This document shows positions 6,635-60,778 of a DNA stretch of 64,000 bases, piece after piece (the stretch's first letter is position 1; each line of letters opens with the position of its first letter). A program made the position numbers and the translations under genes. The stretch is taken from assembly GCF_002285285.1 (NCBI RefSeq), contig NZ_NSJF01000006.1:62001-126000 (forward strand). Direction: 5' to 3'. Below the pieces are notes generated by a model that searched no databases, was not told the origin of the DNA, and was given only the letters and a program-made list of their open reading frames with translations. Origin of the DNA: Vandammella animalimorsus (lineage in GTDB: Bacteria > Pseudomonadota > Gammaproteobacteria > Burkholderiales > Burkholderiaceae_C).

Positions 6635-7004
6635 GGTCGTTGACTCCTTTGATGCAAGGTGAAAAGCCCACGGGCATGGCCGCAGGCATGGCAATGAGGG
6701 AAGCGATTATGGCCTTGACGGGGTGCGCCGCACGCATAGCCAAGGCGCGCTCATAGGGAAAGCGAGGATGCCCTTGCCCTGCCATCCGGCCTTCAGAGGC
6801 AGCCGTAATCCCTCCATGGCCACAAATGCCTTGCGGCGTATTGCGAAAAGGTGAAAAATCCAAAGGCCGCTTTGCAGCAGCCCCTTCGGGGCAGTTCGGC
6901 ATTGCTCCAAAAGCATTGCCTCAATGCCCAATCAAAATAAAAACCATAACAATAAAATTAATTCTTAACCAATGAAAACCTTTTGATATTCCCATGGATT
7001 CAAG
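6635..7004. other. 370-base spacer between livK and a divergent secreted-protein gene
   Basis: No convincing gene is seen. The left part must carry the livK promoter on the minus strand. The right end (about 6935-6995) is A/T-rich, unlike the flanks, and probably holds the promoter for the plus-strand gene at 7005. A small GCCCCTTCGGGGC hairpin with a UUCG loop lies near 6880-6894; it has no U-run and no assigned role. Confidence 0.5.
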
Positions 7005-42706: not shown

Positions 42707-42795
42707 GTGAGGTTTTGGGCGCGGCCGCTTGAGCTGGGGCCTGTGCCCGGCCCCTGCCGCCCGCACCGCACAGGCCCGGCAAAAAAATCAGCAAA

Positions 42796-42827
42796 AAAAC
42801 TGTCCGGTTCTGCACGGCTGTTTCGTC
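42796..42827 (+). promoter_or_regulatory. Possible ECF-type promoter of the siderophore receptor
   Basis: AAAACTGT around 42796-42803 and TTCGTC at 42822-42827, spaced 18 bases, resemble the AAC/CGTC pattern of FecI-like promoters. It is 70 bases before the receptor start. Weak evidence, but the cognate sigma gene lies directly downstream of the receptor. Confidence 0.3.
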
Positions 42828-42896
42828 TTCACGGTTGTACCGCTGGCCGCAAACCCCGGCCCACACTGGCCCAACCGCTTGAAAGGACAAGACAGC

Positions 42897-45470
42897 ATGC
42901 CTTCCACCGCCTCGCCCTTCCCGCTCGCACCCGCCCTTGAACCTGCTTCAAAAGCAAGCCCTTCGCCCGCCGCCCTGCCGCACAGGCGGCAGGCCTGGGC
43001 CTGCACCGCCGTGGCTTCGGCCTGCGCCTGGCTGGCGCTGACGGCGGCTGCGGCTGCGCCAGCACAGGCGCAAGCCCAACCCAACGCAGCCGCCCCGCAG
43101 GCCCAGCGCGTACACGCCATTGCCCTGCCCGCGCAGGATCTGGCCCAGGCCCTGAACGCACTGGCGCGGCAGACCGGCCAGGCCATCTCGGCCGACCACG
43201 CCCTGATGGTGGGCAAAACCGCCCCCGCCGTGGCCGGGCAGCTCACCACCGCCCAGGCGCTGCGGCAACTGCTGGCCGGCAGCGGCTTACAGGCCGAAGC
43301 CGTCGCGGGCGGCTGGGTGGTGCGCCGCGCCCCAGCCGCCACACCGGCCCAACCCGCCGCTGCCGCCACGCGAGGCGAGGCCCAAACCCTGCCCGCCGTC
43401 ACCGTCAGCGCCGCGCCCGACTTGAGCGGCACCACCGAAGGCACGCGCTCCTTCACCACCCGCGCCATGGCCAGCGCCACCGGCCTGGCGCTGTCGCCGC
43501 GCGAGACGCCGCAGTCGGTCAGCGTCATCACGCGCGAGCGCATCGAGGCCCAGGGCCTGGGCACCTTGAGCGATGCCGTGATGGCCACGCCTGGTGTTCA
43601 CACCATGCCAAACGACGTGCGCGGCGACCGCATGAGCGCGCGCGGCTTTGAAATCAACAACTACCAGATCGACGGCGTGTCGCTCAACTGGCCCCGGCAA
43701 TGGGACGCGGGCGAAACCCGCAACAACCTGGCCATGTACGACCGGGTGGAAGTGGTGCGCGGCGCCACCGGCCTGCTGACCGGCGCGGGCGAGCCTTCGG
43801 CCAGCATCAACATGGTGCGCAAGCGCGCCGAATCGGACGTGTTCACCGGCCAGGTGCAGGGCGAACTGGGTTCGTGGCAGCACCGCAGCGGCATGGCGGA
43901 TGTGTCCGCCCCGCTCAACGCCAGCCGCAGCGTGCGCGCCCGCGTGGTGGCCCAGGCCACCAGCCGCGACACCTTCCAAGACCGCGAGCACATCGACAGC
44001 CAGCTCTTTTACGGCACGGTAGAGGCCGACCTGAGCCCTGGCACCCGCCTGACCCTGGGCGGCGATTGGCAAAACTTCAAGCCGCGCGGCGCACCTTGGA
44101 GCGGCCTGTTGCTTTGGGACAGCGAGGGCCGCCGCATCACCGATTGGCCGCGCGGCTACAGCCTCGCGGCCAATTGGGGCGGTTGGGCCAGCACGCAAAA
44201 AACCTTGTTCGCCAAGCTGGAGCACCGCTTCAACGACGACTGGACGCTGAAGCTGGACGCCCAGAACGCCGACAACAATGCCGACCTCAAGCTGAGTTGG
44301 CCTGAGGGCGCGCCAGACCGCCGCACGGGAACCGGCGTAGAGCTTTCAAACTATTACGACCAAAGCAAGCACAACCAGAAGAATGTGAACCTTCGCCTGA
44401 ACGGCGCTTTCAATGCCTGGGGCCGCCGCCACGAGCTGATGACCGGCCTGAGCTGGGCGCGCCAGCGCTGGTGGGCCGAGGCGACCCATGAGGGCGAGTA
44501 CGCGCTGCCCAACGTCTGGGCCTTTGACGGCACGGTGCCCGAGCCGCCCCGGCTGGCCGAACCTGAGCTGGCGGGCGATGTGCGCAGCACGCAGCGCGCC
44601 GCCTACGTGGCCACCCGCCTGCACGTGGCCGAGCCGCTCAAGCTCATCGTGGGCGCGCGCGTGACCGACCTCAAGCGCACCGGCGCCGCCGGGGCCATCG
44701 GGCATTACGCGTTCCAGACGCACGACAAACACGTGTTCACGCCCTACATCGGCGCGGTGTACGACCTGGGCGGCAGCTACTCGGCCTATGCCAGCGCCAC
44801 GCGCATCTTCAAGCCGCAGGAAGATCGCGACCGCCACGGCCAGCCTCTGCCCTCGCTCCAGGGCCGGAACCTGGAAGCGGGCCTGAAGGCCGAATGGCTG
44901 GACGGCCAGCTCACCGGCAGCCTGGCCGTGTTCCAGACCACACAGGACAAGCTGGCGGTGCCAGACGGCAACCTGATCGTGCCCGGCACGGTGGACGAAC
45001 AGGCCTACCGCGCCGCGAACAACGTGAAAACGCGCGGCTACGAGCTGGAACTGACGGGCCGCCTGGCCCCCGGTTGGGACGTGAGCCTGGGCTGGACGCA
45101 ATTGAGTACCAAGGAAGCCGATGGCGCGCGTGTGCGCCCCCAGCACCCCAGCCGCATGCTCAAGCTCTATACCCAGTACCGCCTGCCTGGCGCGTGGAAC
45201 AAGCTCACGCTGGGCGGCGGCCTGAACTGGCAAGGCCGCACTTACACAAACACGGAAAACCCCGTCACCGGCGCACCCGAACAACTGCGCCAGAACGCCT
45301 ACGCGCTGCTCAGCCTGAACGCGCGCTACCAGTTCACCCCGCAACTGAGCGCGCGCCTGGCCGTGAACAACGTGCTGGACAAGCGCTACCTGTCCAACGT
45401 TTCGGCCTTCGACCGCCTGCAATACGGCGCGCCGCGCAGCGTGATGCTGACGGTGGATTACCGCTTCTGA
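42897..45470 (+). CDS. TonB-dependent siderophore receptor with STN signalling domain
   Basis: 857 residues from the ATG at 42897, preceded by GAAAGGAC. Signal peptide about 30-58 (AWACTAVASACAWLALTAAA). The STN domain (about 70-145: LPAQDLAQALNALARQTGQA, LTTAQALRQLL) signals to a FecR. Plug (about 180-310) has ETPQSVSVITRERIEAQGLG and DRVEVVRGATGLLTGAGEPS; barrel ends VMLTVDYRF. It imports a ferric siderophore, most like FhuE/FpvA/FoxA receptors, but the ligand is not known. fecI and fecR follow on the same strand, the reverse of the common order. Confidence 0.95.
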   Translation: MPSTASPFPLAPALEPASKASPSPAALPHRRQAWACTAVASACAWLALTAAAAAPAQAQAQPNAAAPQAQRVHAIALPAQDLAQALNALARQTGQAISADHALMVGKTAPAVAGQLTTAQALRQLLAGSGLQAEAVAGGWVVRRAPAATPAQPAAAATRGEAQTLPAVTVSAAPDLSGTTEGTRSFTTRAMASATGLALSPRETPQSVSVITRERIEAQGLGTLSDAVMATPGVHTMPNDVRGDRMSARGFEINNYQIDGVSLNWPRQWDAGETRNNLAMYDRVEVVRGATGLLTGAGEPSASINMVRKRAESDVFTGQVQGELGSWQHRSGMADVSAPLNASRSVRARVVAQATSRDTFQDREHIDSQLFYGTVEADLSPGTRLTLGGDWQNFKPRGAPWSGLLLWDSEGRRITDWPRGYSLAANWGGWASTQKTLFAKLEHRFNDDWTLKLDAQNADNNADLKLSWPEGAPDRRTGTGVELSNYYDQSKHNQKNVNLRLNGAFNAWGRRHELMTGLSWARQRWWAEATHEGEYALPNVWAFDGTVPEPPRLAEPELAGDVRSTQRAAYVATRLHVAEPLKLIVGARVTDLKRTGAAGAIGHYAFQTHDKHVFTPYIGAVYDLGGSYSAYASATRIFKPQEDRDRHGQPLPSLQGRNLEAGLKAEWLDGQLTGSLAVFQTTQDKLAVPDGNLIVPGTVDEQAYRAANNVKTRGYELELTGRLAPGWDVSLGWTQLSTKEADGARVRPQHPSRMLKLYTQYRLPGAWNKLTLGGGLNWQGRTYTNTENPVTGAPEQLRQNAYALLSLNARYQFTPQLSARLAVNNVLDKRYLSNVSAFDRLQYGAPRSVMLTVDYRF

Positions 45471-45729: not shown

Positions 45730-46284
45730 ATGTCTTTCACCCGCCATTACGACGAATTGCTGGGCCACTTCACCCGCGCCACGGGCGACCGCGAGGCCGC
45801 GCGCGATCTGGTGCAAGAGAGCCACGCCCGCGCCTGGGCGTTGGGGCCGAGGCTGGATGCGGTGCTGGATTTGCGCGCGCTGCTGTTTCGCATCGGCCGA
45901 CATTTGGTGATCGACGAGGCGCGCCGCCGCCGGGCCGAGGCCCAGGCGCTGCACAACCTGGCGCTGCTGTGCGAGCAGGACGCCGCCCCCAGCGCCGAGC
46001 GCTGCTGCGCGGCCAGCCAGCAGCTCGAACGTCTGAGCGCGCGGCTGGCGCTGATGCCGCTGCGGCGGCGCACGGCCTTCATCCTGGTGCGGGTGCATGG
46101 CTTCAGCCATGCCGAGGCCGCAGCCCACATGGGCGTGAGCGTGGCCGGCATTGAAAAACACGTGGTGCGCGCCACGCTGGACTTGGCCCCGCGCGCGCTG
46201 CTGGCGGCAGCACGCGCAACTGAGTCGCACCAGGCGGATTCCACCGCTGCGGCCGCAGCCCCTGCCGTTATGGCGCAGCCATGA
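45730..46284 (+). CDS. fecI: FecI-like ECF sigma factor
   Basis: 184 residues. Region 2 (about 1-75) has LLGHFTRATGDREAARDLVQ and LFRIGRHLVIDEARRRRAE. Region 4 (about 105-160) has LALMPLRRRTAFILVRVHGF and GVSVAGIEKHVVRA. It directs RNA polymerase to the siderophore-receptor promoter when FecR signals. It starts 259 bases after the receptor and overlaps fecR by four bases (ATGA at 46281-46284). I see no clear Fur box immediately before it. Confidence 0.92.
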   Translation: MSFTRHYDELLGHFTRATGDREAARDLVQESHARAWALGPRLDAVLDLRALLFRIGRHLVIDEARRRRAEAQALHNLALLCEQDAAPSAERCCAASQQLERLSARLALMPLRRRTAFILVRVHGFSHAEAAAHMGVSVAGIEKHVVRATLDLAPRALLAAARATESHQADSTAAAAAPAVMAQP

Positions 46285-47354
46285 AGATGCCGCTGCCCCA
46301 CGCCGCCGTGGCGCATGACAGCTTGACGGATGAGGCTTTGATGGATGAGGCCCCGAGCAACGATGCCCTGGTCAGCGAAGCGCTGTTGCTGCTGGCGCGC
46401 AGCCACGGCGGCGATGCACAGCAGGCGCAGGCGGCCCAGGCCGAGCTGCAAGCGCGCAGCGCGCGCGAGCCGGCCTTTGCCGCCGCCTGCCAGGCGGCGC
46501 GCCAAATCTGGCAGGCCACGGACGGCAGCGCCCTGCGCGAGAGCCTGAGCCTGCCGCCCAGCGCCCGCGAGCGCCAGGGCGCGCCGCGCCGCGCCGTGCT
46601 GGGCCTGATGGGCGTGGCGGCGCTGACGCTGGGGCTGGGCGCAGCCGGGCGCTGGCTATGGCTGCGGCCGACTTTTGCGCAGGCGCTGGCCACCGGCCAG
46701 GGCGAAATCCAACGCCTGAGGCTGCCCGATGGCACCGAGCTGGCGCTGGATGCGCAAACGCGCGTGCGCGTGAGCCTGTATCGCCAGCGCCGCGAGCTGC
46801 ACCTGGAGCGCGGCGAAATTCACCTGCAAGTGGCCCCGGATGCAGACATGCCGCTGACGGTGTTCACCGCCCAGGGCCGGGTGCAGGTGCTGGGCACGCG
46901 CTTTAGCGTGGCCGTGCGCCAGGCGCACATGCACGTGGCTGTGGCCCAAGGGCGCGTGGCCGTGTGGGCGCAGGCCGATGCCCCGGCCGCCCAGGTCGAA
47001 CCAAGCGCGCCGCTGGCGGAGCTGGGCGCGGGCCAGCAATTGCGCCTTGGCGCAGGCCACAGCGGCCAGCCCCAGCCCATCGACGCCGCCGACGTGGGCG
47101 CATGGCAAGGCGGTATGGAGGGTGGCTGGCTGGTGTTCCACGCCACGCCGCTGCCGGAAGTGGTGGAGCGCTGGAATGGCTACCTGCGCCCCGGCCTGCG
47201 CCTGGCGGGCAACGCCCAGCGCCTGCAAGCGCAGCGGCTGACGGGCAGCTTTCCCATCCGCGATCCGGGCGCTTTTCTGGCCAGCCTGCCGCGCACGCTA
47301 CCCGTGCGCGTACAGCGCCAGGGCGACGGCGCCTGGCTGATTGCGCCGCGCTGA
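46281..47354 (+). CDS. fecR: FecR-like transmembrane regulator
   Basis: 357 residues. The cytoplasmic N-terminal domain (1-105) with DALVSEALLLLARSHGG is the anti-sigma part. A membrane segment follows (about 106-128, RRAVLGLMGVAALTLGLGAA) with a twin-arginine before it, as reported for E. coli FecR export by Tat. The periplasmic FecR domain has LRLPDGTELALDAQTRVRVS and GRVQVLGTRFSVAV, and the C-terminal region contacts the receptor STN domain. It relays receptor occupancy to FecI. Confidence 0.93.
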   Translation: MKMPLPHAAVAHDSLTDEALMDEAPSNDALVSEALLLLARSHGGDAQQAQAAQAELQARSAREPAFAAACQAARQIWQATDGSALRESLSLPPSARERQGAPRRAVLGLMGVAALTLGLGAAGRWLWLRPTFAQALATGQGEIQRLRLPDGTELALDAQTRVRVSLYRQRRELHLERGEIHLQVAPDADMPLTVFTAQGRVQVLGTRFSVAVRQAHMHVAVAQGRVAVWAQADAPAAQVEPSAPLAELGAGQQLRLGAGHSGQPQPIDAADVGAWQGGMEGGWLVFHATPLPEVVERWNGYLRPGLRLAGNAQRLQAQRLTGSFPIRDPGAFLASLPRTLPVRVQRQGDGAWLIAPR

Positions 47355-49912: not shown

Positions 49913-50055
49913 GGTGTTCTTGTGCCTGCCTGCACCCATATGCGCCAAGGCAGCGCGCACTGTGTCTGAGTGCCTATGCAGGGCATGCGCTTTCCTTCCC
50001 AGGAACAAAAAAACTGTGCCAGCGTCGCTGACTGACACATTCTTTTTCAAATCAT

Positions 50056-50072
50056 ATAAGAATTATTCTTAT
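50056..50072. promoter_or_regulatory. Fur box
   Basis: ATAAGAATTATTCTTAT is a perfect 17-base palindrome, two symmetric changes from the ATGAGAATnATTCTCAT form. It lies in the promoter region of the DUF3649 operon and implies repression by Fur with iron. Confidence 0.7.
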
Positions 50073-50267
50073 TCTTGATAACTTTCAATAAAATTTTTCT
50101 GCGTGTCCCGCAGCTGCGCACGGCGCTTGGGTGCCTGTGCACGAATCAAGCCAAAAATCCCCCCTGTTGCGCCTGCACGCAGCATCTGAGGGTTTGCACG
50201 ACCTGCCAAGGCGGCATGTGCTTGCTAGGATAGCGCCCGGCCTGAGCAGGGGTCACCCGCCCCGTGA

Positions 50268-59143: not shown

Positions 59144-59160
59144 TCAAGAACGATTCTCAT
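59144..59160. promoter_or_regulatory. Possible Fur box upstream of the FecI-FecR fusion
   Basis: TCAAGAACGATTCTCAT matches 11 of 16 positions of the AATGATAATCATTATC model on the minus strand (GATGAGAATCGTTCTT) and ends eight bases before the ATG, so it would block initiation. Confidence 0.5.
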
Positions 59161-59168
59161 CCCTGAAA

Positions 59169-60677
59169 ATGCTTGGCGCCCACCCCACCTCCCCACAGCC
59201 CATGACTGCCGGCGCAGCGCTGGCGGTGTTTGGCCAGCACTATGAAGGCCTGGTGCGCTTTTTGCGCCAGCGCACTGGCTGCAGCGATGCCGCGCACGAG
59301 CTGGCGCACGAGACCTGGCTGCGCCTGGTCGTGCGTGCCGATGCCAACAGCGCCCAAGACAGCCCTTGCAGCACAGCACAGCCCATACTGGCTGGCCGCT
59401 GGCCCGAGGAGGCAGGCGCTGCCGCCCAACACGATTCGGCTCGGGCCTATATCTATGCCGTAGGCGCACGGCTGGCGCTCAACCGCCTGCGCGATCAGGG
59501 CAGGCAACAGCAGTGGATCGAAGTGGCCGGGCAGGAAGATACCGAGCAGCCCTGCCACTGGCCACAAACTCACGCCAACCCGGCCCGCGCCCATGAGTTG
59601 CGCCAGGCCTTGGCTGCGATCGACCAGCACCTGGGCCAGCTGGGCCAGCGTCAGCGCCAGGTGTTGTTGGCCCATCGGCTCGATGGCCTGCCCCAGGCCG
59701 AGCTGGCGCAGCAGCACGGCGTCTCCATCAAAACCATTGAGCGCGACATTGCCGCAGGCATGGCGGCCATTGAAGCTGCGCTGTACCAATGGCGTGGCGA
59801 AGCGCCAGCGACGCTGACTGCGCCCAAAGCCTCAGCCTCAGGCGCAACAGCCACGGCACCCCAGCCCACCATGTCAACCGCGCGCCGCCACGGCGGGCGG
59901 CGCCAAGCGCTTTCTGCCCTTCTGGGGCTGGGTGCGATGGGCGGACTGGCGCTCTTGCTGCGCCCCTGGCTGCTGCGCCAGGGCGGGCTGGGCGCGCCGC
60001 AATGGACGCTGGCGCTGGACAGCGGCATCGGTCAACTGCAGCGGCAAGATCTGCCCGACGGCAGCCAGCTCACGCTGGATGCCGCCAGTCACGTAGTGCT
60101 GCGCTATTTCAGCACCGAGCGCCAGGCCCAGCTGCACCGTGGCAGCGCCTTCTTCGCCGTCGCGCCCGATGCGCAGCGCCCCTTCACCGTGCATACCACG
60201 CTGGCCCACATCACCGTACTGGGCACCCGATTTGGCGTGGAGTGGCAAGGCACGCCCCAGTCACCACAGCTGCGCATCGCCGTGCAAAGCGGCCAGGTGC
60301 GAGTGCAGCCGCTGCCTGGCTCCCCCGATCAGCCCCGTCCTGCCCCCTTGCTGCTGGGCGCGGGCCAGCAAGTCATGATCGATGCCCATGGCCAGGCCCA
60401 CCACACCCAGCTGGAGCGCCCCGAGGACGCGGCCGCCTGGCAGCACGGTTGGCTGCTCTTTGACGGCGAGCCACTGGCCGCGGCTGCGCAGCGCCTGGCG
60501 CGCTACCACCACGCCCCCATTCGCGTTGCCCCAGGCGCCGCTGCATTGCCGGTGCTCGGTCGCGTGCGCATCGCCATGGCCTACGAGTGGTTGCGCCTGC
60601 TGCCCCAATCCCTGCCCGTGCGCGTCCAACGCGCCAGCGACGGCGGCATCGACATCCTGCCCGCGCCGCAGGGCTGA
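59169..60677 (+). CDS. Fused ECF sigma factor / FecR-like transmembrane protein
   Basis: 502 residues in one frame. Sigma region 2 occupies about 15-115 (FGQHYEGLVRFLRQRTGCSD, AHETWLRLV, AVGARLALNRLRDQGR) with a roughly 30-residue insertion in it. Region 4 is about 145-210 (LGQRQRQVLLAHRLDGLPQA, QHGVSIKTIERDIAAGMAAI). A 30-residue Ala/Thr-rich linker leads to a membrane helix at 247-266, preceded by twin Arg (GGRRQALSALLGLG). The FecR periplasmic domain (270-502: LPDGSQLTLDAASHVVLRYF, VLGTRFGVEW) follows. The FecR cytoplasmic anti-sigma domain seen in the protein at 46281-47354 is missing. Pseudomonas putida IutY is the known precedent for a sigma/anti-sigma hybrid. No receptor is adjacent. 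Confidence 0.9.
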   Translation: MLGAHPTSPQPMTAGAALAVFGQHYEGLVRFLRQRTGCSDAAHELAHETWLRLVVRADANSAQDSPCSTAQPILAGRWPEEAGAAAQHDSARAYIYAVGARLALNRLRDQGRQQQWIEVAGQEDTEQPCHWPQTHANPARAHELRQALAAIDQHLGQLGQRQRQVLLAHRLDGLPQAELAQQHGVSIKTIERDIAAGMAAIEAALYQWRGEAPATLTAPKASASGATATAPQPTMSTARRHGGRRQALSALLGLGAMGGLALLLRPWLLRQGGLGAPQWTLALDSGIGQLQRQDLPDGSQLTLDAASHVVLRYFSTERQAQLHRGSAFFAVAPDAQRPFTVHTTLAHITVLGTRFGVEWQGTPQSPQLRIAVQSGQVRVQPLPGSPDQPRPAPLLLGAGQQVMIDAHGQAHHTQLERPEDAAAWQHGWLLFDGEPLAAAAQRLARYHHAPIRVAPGAAALPVLGRVRIAMAYEWLRLLPQSLPVRVQRASDGGIDILPAPQG

Positions 60678-60778
60678 TGCGGCGCCAGAGAAGAGCATCC
60701 CCATTGCCAAGGGCTCGCGCCTGAGCGCCCTTGCCTACAATCGCGCGCTGTGACTCAACGCCCCATCAAAAGAACGAT

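Follow-up and report, generated by a model that had tools for sequence, protein, structure and literature searches.

How would an ECF sigma factor that is fused to its own FecR-type periplasmic domain receive a signal when no receptor gene lies beside it? The question is raised by an open frame at 59169-60677 of the window, the whole stretch of 64,000 nucleotides of Vandammella animalimorsus DNA analysed here (GCF_002285285.1, contig NZ_NSJF01000006.1, positions 62,001 to 126,000). A preliminary description, made from the letters alone, took the product for an orphan sigma/FecR protein lacking the usual anti-sigma domain, and set it apart from IutY of P. putida by the absence of an adjacent receptor and by an insertion in sigma region 2. 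We consider it highly probable that the protein is an IutY-type regulator released by RseP, and that its signal comes from a FhuA/FoxA-like receptor, chimeric and not linked to it, which is encoded on another contig (C9).

IutY is a sigma/anti-sigma hybrid of the aerobactin system with 374 aa, in which sigma region 4 extends to residue 164 and almost reaches the membrane helix; a 168-residue form is already without the transmembrane segment, and forms of fewer than 237 residues retain ~50 periplasmic residues (passages of PMC5411451 and PMC9249621). The IutY sigma domain is freed by Prc and RseP, truncation results in constitutive activity, and the protein is termed unique (passages of PMC5411451). 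A passage of PMC8999054 calls IutY the only characterised ECF sigma factor with activation of such a kind, and another gives the same mechanism for "certain members" of ECF243.

Results

The product is a single-chain hybrid of the IutY type

The gene and its product have the following features, in window coordinates.

59169-60677, plus strand: sigma/anti-sigma hybrid gene, 502 aa (open frame, Pfam, orthologues; alternative in-frame ATG at 59202)
59202-59528, plus strand: ECF sigma region 2, residues 12-120 (Pfam Sigma70_r2 at 21-58; model helices at 14-120)
59343-59426, plus strand: disordered insertion within sigma region 2, residues ~59-86 (comparison of hybrids, structure model)
59580-59795, plus strand: ECF sigma region 4, residues 138-209 (Pfam Sigma70_r4_2 at 150-200; model helices at 138-209)
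59796-59897, plus strand: disordered linker towards the membrane, residues 210-243, without DUF4880 (Pfam, model, dN/dS)
59898-59903, plus strand: twin arginine R244-R245 (conserved as RR in all 32 hybrids of the alignment)
59907-59981, plus strand: predicted membrane helix, residues 247-271 (AlphaFold2 model)
60003-60662, plus strand: FecR-type periplasmic domain, residues 279-498 (Pfam FecR at 288-378; pLDDT mostly >90; PDB match 6ovk)
60222-60227, plus strand: Gly352-Thr353 (GT pair conserved in all 32 aligned hybrids; counterpart of Gly181-Thr182 in E. coli FecR by alignment)

All three Pfam matches score above their cut-offs. The structure was modelled with AlphaFold2 from a 10-sequence alignment (mean pLDDT 73.9, pTM 0.48); sigma-like helices extend up to residue 209, and pLDDT falls below 50 in the insertion (residues 62-86) and over residues 211-261, which cover the linker and the first part of the helix. 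The top PDB match of the model was PupR complexed with the PupB signalling domain (6ovk; E 1.8e-18, TM 0.84 on target length), followed by a putative anti-sigma factor of Parabacteroides and then by ECF sigma factors. Pfam and the model agree on the architecture first described, namely one uninterrupted frame with sigma regions 2 and 4, a disordered linker, a twin arginine, a helix and a FecR domain. The insertion of ~30 residues noted in sigma region 2 was recovered as well and is predicted to be disordered; it is absent from a second hybrid of the window genome, and an orthologue in a relative (G009) carries an insertion of similar length and other sequence.

The cytoplasmic domain of FecR is missing, as had been proposed: a Pfam search of the 502-aa chain found no DUF4880, and the 37 residues between the end of sigma region 4 (residue ~209) and the membrane helix, predicted to be disordered, are not enough to form a folded anti-sigma domain. 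The window gene thus encodes a single-chain hybrid without a separate cytoplasmic DUF4880, unlike the classical FecR anti-sigma factor. The FecR protein at 46281-47354, which had been held up as a classical one with its cytoplasmic domain, gave no DUF4880 match at E ≤ 0.01; it has ~100 residues before its membrane helix. Two other FecR proteins of the window genome, on contigs C1 and C8, do match DUF4880. The missing domain does not distinguish the hybrid from IutY, which lacks it too, and the architecture is of the IutY type, an already known design.

The sigma domain is probably tethered to the membrane by the helix and released by proteolysis. Gly181-Thr182 is the bond cleaved in E. coli FecR (a passage of PMC9249621), and the aligned Gly352-Thr353 is a candidate self-cleavage site of the hybrid's periplasmic domain.

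The gene is kept in one frame under selection

Orthologues in single frame are present in two genus relatives, at 96% identity in G007 and at 61-65%, depending on the method, in G009. By the Nei-Gojobori method, dN/dS over the whole gene was 0.17 against G007 and 0.34 against G009. Within the gene, the G009 comparison gave 0.22 in the sigma part and 0.36 in the part made up of the membrane helix and periplasmic domain, and the linker, at 0.94 over 28 codons, evolves almost freely. These values and the single-frame orthologues indicate that the hybrid gene is under selection and does not contain a frameshift. A frameshift between two genes, the objection raised beforehand, is contradicted by orthologues in one frame at 96% and ~63% identity. 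Completeness was 99.6% for the window genome (G000), 80% for G008 and 77% for G009.

Over the final 600 bp of the gene (60100-60677), mismatches to G007 amounted to 6-13 per 100 bp, compared with 0-4 before. The periplasmic half may have been exchanged by recombination, or it may be fast-evolving.

Iron control had been suggested by a Fur-like site at 59144-59160. Fur-like sites were scored as 19-mers on both strands against a consensus.

59146-59164, minus strand: weak Fur-like site immediately upstream of the hybrid gene (11 of 19 consensus matches; block kept in G007 and G009)

The best 19-mer at this site scores weakly (11/19, compared with 12-13 for nine other 19-mers of the window), but it falls in the best-conserved upstream block of G009, where the score is 13/19. 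The top Fur-like palindrome of the window (50055-50076, 12-13/19) lies far from the hybrid gene.

A rearrangement accounts for the missing receptor neighbour

The acyltransferase gene upstream of the hybrid gene and ppx downstream of it were both confirmed by Pfam. That no TonB receptor gene adjoins the hybrid gene holds for the window genome, but it reflects a local rearrangement: in G007 and G009 a receptor gene follows the hybrid gene.

60678-60727, no strand: rearrangement junction (the part homologous to the hybrid locus of G007 ends with the hybrid stop codon; the ppx side starts at 60705 against G009 or 60727 against G007)

In G007 the hybrid gene is followed by the receptor gene, and an iron-type alcohol dehydrogenase gene (Fe-ADH) is followed by ppx. 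The window genome has ppx after the hybrid gene and, on contig C9, a receptor gene after the Fe-ADH gene. The two junctions of one genome are reciprocal to the two of the other. At the C9 junction (locus L016) the dehydrogenase homology ends at L016:6941 and the hybrid-locus homology begins at 6872, leaving a gap of ~68 bp.

Hybrid and receptor were probably neighbours in the ancestral state, because they adjoin in G007, in G009 and at the loci of 25 hybrids outside the genus. In G009 the EF-hand gene is directly followed by ppx, with neither acyltransferase nor hybrid gene between, and the wider gene order in G000 points to the same position of ppx. The G009 order speaks against a simple history, and an exchange with reciprocal junctions would take at least two steps within a single chromosome. 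The C9 receptor gene and the window are on separate contigs. Orphan status does not appear to be a property of the regulator, as a receptor follows its orthologue in two relatives and a matching STN domain and promoter are found on C9 (below); the hybrid appears to be an orphan by position only, separated from its receptor by chromosomal exchange.

The receptor on C9 carries the matching STN domain and promoter

Profile searches of the window genome gave 5 FecR domains and 6 STN matches, one of which is a secretin, probably PilQ-like. Four STN receptors adjoin a FecR protein, which in one case is the second hybrid. This leaves the window hybrid and one receptor unpaired, and the search recommended earlier, for an STN receptor lacking a FecR of its own elsewhere in the genome, thereby found a candidate.

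G000:C9:211293-213830 (L016:4294-6831), minus strand: unpaired STN receptor (STN search; no FecR of its own)

Pairing by elimination alone was discarded, as it is undercut by the neighbourhood of the second hybrid in G007, which has a C9-like barrel and a PepSY gene. The ambiguity was resolved by comparing the receptors domain by domain. The STN domain of the C9 receptor shares 92% identity with its counterpart in the receptor that follows the G007 orthologue and 83% with the one that follows the G009 orthologue, compared with 42-49% for six other STN domains. With up to 3 mismatches allowed, the promoter TGAGGGATWWGCCGCGCTGSGGTGTTGTA has one match each in G000, G007 and G009, positioned before the C9 receptor gene in the first and before the receptor gene behind the hybrid in the other two. 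It was absent at this threshold from G006, a genome without an orthologue of the window hybrid, and the reversed pattern, used as a control, gave 0 matches in the four genomes. STN domains of the C9 type (E ≤ 1e-4) occur in 3 of 10 genus genomes, the same three that have the window hybrid; an identical set of 3 in 10 would arise by chance with a probability of 1/120, a figure that ignores kinship and the incompleteness of G008 and G009. We infer from these sequence comparisons that the C9 receptor is the cognate receptor of the window hybrid.

A true relic, that is, a hybrid which lost its receptor and has no more signal input, is improbable. The absence of an adjacent receptor and the end of the homology to the G007 hybrid locus at the stop codon would both fit it; however, the frame is intact, dN/dS is at the values given above, and the matching promoter and STN domain are retained on C9. 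We give still less weight to the possibility that the hybrid hears another receptor, either the one at 42729-45470 of the window or one on C8. These two resemble the G007 hybrid-linked receptor in plug and barrel (61% and 64% identity), but their STN domains are 47% and 42% identical to its STN domain, each adjoins its own FecR, and the promoter search yields C9 alone.

The C9 receptor is a chimera

The plug and barrel of the C9 receptor share 22-23% identity with those of the hybrid-linked receptors of G007 and G009, and 88% with those of the receptor near the second hybrid's orthologue in G007. In a comparison of barrels, C9 has 24% identity to either hybrid-linked receptor, and these two have 63% to each other. 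From the promoter as far as ~L016:6381, where the STN domain ends, informative sites of the C9 receptor gene match the hybrid-linked parent, except that they are mixed at 6700-6621 (the signal peptide); they are mixed again at 6380-6341, and the other parent prevails from 6340. The C9 receptor gene is chimeric, with the promoter and STN domain of a hybrid-linked receptor and a FhuA/FoxA-like barrel behind the STN domain.

A pairing of the C9 receptor with the second hybrid (on C1), whose G007 orthologue is near a receptor with the same barrel, also has little probability, about as little as the use of another receptor by the window hybrid. The 88% identity of the barrel and the PepSY gene common to both loci speak for it; against it, the C9 STN domain is 47% identical to that of the second hybrid's receptor compared with 92% to that of the first's, and the C9 promoter is of the first-hybrid kind.

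By NCBIfam, the C9 barrel assumed to serve the window hybrid is closest to FhuA, with FoxA near, at scores below the equivalog cut-offs and above the TonB-siderophore cut-off. The G007 hybrid-linked barrel is closest to FauA and FhuE. The C9 receptor gene has a PepSY_TM gene on its downstream side. The C9 receptor probably takes up a hydroxamate-type siderophore, and replacing the barrel would have changed the input class of the hybrid.

Joint transfer of hybrid and receptor, considered for their similar dS against G007 (0.22 for the hybrid's periplasmic half, 0.17 for the C9 STN domain), was set aside as not discriminating, because the C9 barrel and PepSY gene against their own G007 counterparts also give 0.18-0.19. 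On the far side of the PepSY gene, as seen from the moved receptor, there is a reverse transcriptase gene (L016:692-2356, plus strand, on G000:C9); its 3' end overlaps ~360 bp that are 84% like L043:4382-4744 behind the G007 hybrid-linked receptor.

Hybrids recur in the family, and STN domains and barrels are mixed

For a survey, a 10-row profile was run over 299 family genomes with up to 5 candidates scored per genome; its tenth row is a frame of G002 that is possibly another kind of fusion. Full-length hybrids were defined as single-frame and stop-free from model position ≤20 to ≥443. At least 30 such hybrids were found, 5 in 3 genus genomes and 25 in 20 other genomes. The window hybrid is thus not the isolated oddity it had seemed, as at least 23 of the 299 family genomes carry a full-length one. 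In all 25 listed hybrids outside the genus, a TonB-receptor-like frame in the same orientation follows no more than 0.9 kb downstream (split over two frames in loci L097 and L112). Within the genus, a receptor is downstream of hybrids in G003-G007 and G009, with gaps of 1.4 and 1.9 kb in G006 and one G007 pair. A frameshift fusion of fecI and fecR, or a misassembly that put ppx after the hybrid gene, is the least probable of the alternatives: the junction is merely ~30-50 bp long and was seen in one assembly only, but the gene is in single frame in three genus genomes and in the 25 listed hybrids of other genera, both junction pairs have G007 counterparts, and ppx is near the EF-hand gene in G009 too.

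In a class-wide sample of 369 genomes searched with the same profile (E ≤ 1e-60, up to 4 candidates scored per genome), the matches listed came from 2 genomes, the window genome and one with an internal stop, and no further single-frame hybrid was among them. A scan of genome contigs with the single hybrid protein returned one locus only and was too strict to serve as a survey.

The second hybrid of the window genome (L012:6575-8152, minus strand, on G000:C1) has 525 aa and adjoins an STN receptor. Between its G007 counterpart and the receptor there, genes for a TacA-like antitoxin and a GNAT acetyltransferase (L044:12042-12898, minus strand) form a toxin-antitoxin-like pair. A frame in G002 (L051:8348-9928, 526 aa) matches FecI and FecR, including part of the cytoplasmic side, and is possibly a FecI-FecR fusion that keeps the anti-sigma domain.

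Hybrid-receptor pairs were compared at 32 loci, without L097 and L112 (split receptor frame) and L050-L053 (no clear hybrid). Identity between hybrids correlated with identity between their STN domains for both the sigma part (r 0.76) and the FecR part (r 0.73), compared with r 0.49 for FecR part and barrel and r 0.40 for STN domain and barrel, the pairs not being independent. These data fall short of demonstrating contact-driven coevolution, as the sigma part tracks the STN domain as well as the FecR part does. The correlation therefore indicates inheritance of the whole hybrid with the STN domain, which is largely explained by close linkage. The C9 receptor appears to differ from the linked pairs in that its STN match has outlasted the loss of linkage. 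STN domains were at least 65% identical in 22 locus pairs, and in 11 of these 22 the barrels were less than 50% identical. We lean towards the view that in Comamonadaceae the hybrid, the promoter and the STN domain form a portable unit, with barrels swapped repeatedly through recombination right after the STN domain; in the window genome this unit would function even with its parts at unlinked loci.

Discussion

In the mechanism we propose, the ECF sigma domain would be kept at the inner membrane, in the absence of a signal, by the hybrid's own C-terminal FecR-like half. This half probably cleaves itself at Gly352-Thr353, the pieces staying together, and would be docked by the STN domain of an outer-membrane TonB receptor. 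The contact between this STN domain and the FecR-like half would alter on siderophore transport, a periplasmic protease would then trim the FecR part, and RseP would cut in or near the membrane helix. The freed sigma domain would transcribe the receptor promoter. The cognate receptor would be that of C9, with the promoter and STN domain that directly follow the orthologous hybrid in relatives, and a chromosomal exchange would have cut the regulator from its neighbour, with the input barrel replaced. The STN domain is said to set pathway specificity (a passage of PMC5411451).

The RseP gene is present in the window genome. A search of that genome for PF17804, the N-terminal domain of Prc/Tsp, gave no match, and a C-terminal processing protease (TIGR00225), which we label CtpA-type, is encoded by a 505-aa frame. 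In P. aeruginosa, signalling goes up without CtpA and down without Prc (a passage of PMC11637429). In the window genome the TIGR00225 protease or another one may make the first cut.

As in IutY, compared by its published architecture, the sigma domain of the hybrid is joined straight to one helix and a FecR-type periplasmic domain without a cytoplasmic anti-sigma tail, the receptor gene is adjacent in relatives, and the genome encodes RseP. The hybrid differs from IutY in its length (502 rather than 374 aa), the insertion in sigma region 2, the longer linker, the unlinked and chimeric receptor and a genome with no PF17804 match. With FecI/FecR/FecA it shares the periplasmic FecR fold, the GT site, the twin arginine before the helix and the STN receptor; in contrast to that system, sigma factor and regulator are in one chain, and DUF4880, the FecR cytoplasmic domain, is absent.

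The laboratory chimeras of PupA and PupB likewise placed one receptor's signalling domain on another's barrel, and one of the two lost signalling (Koster et al. 1994, in a passage of PMC9249621). The C9 chimera, in contrast, is natural, and the promoter and leader came with the signalling domain. Among the open-access titles and starts of abstracts listed, none deals with TonB receptors that exchange signalling domains in nature or with sigma/FecR hybrids in Comamonadaceae, which is weak evidence of novelty.

In the present data the IutY design recurs in one family, and an apparent orphan regulator becomes a named pair. The bold part of our reading is a natural exchange of the receptor barrel under a constant regulator and signalling domain. 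It would be the natural counterpart of the laboratory receptor chimeras, in which regulator, promoter and STN domain stay constant and the barrel differs. The partners of orphan regulators might be traced through the STN domain and the promoter when the gene neighbourhood fails.
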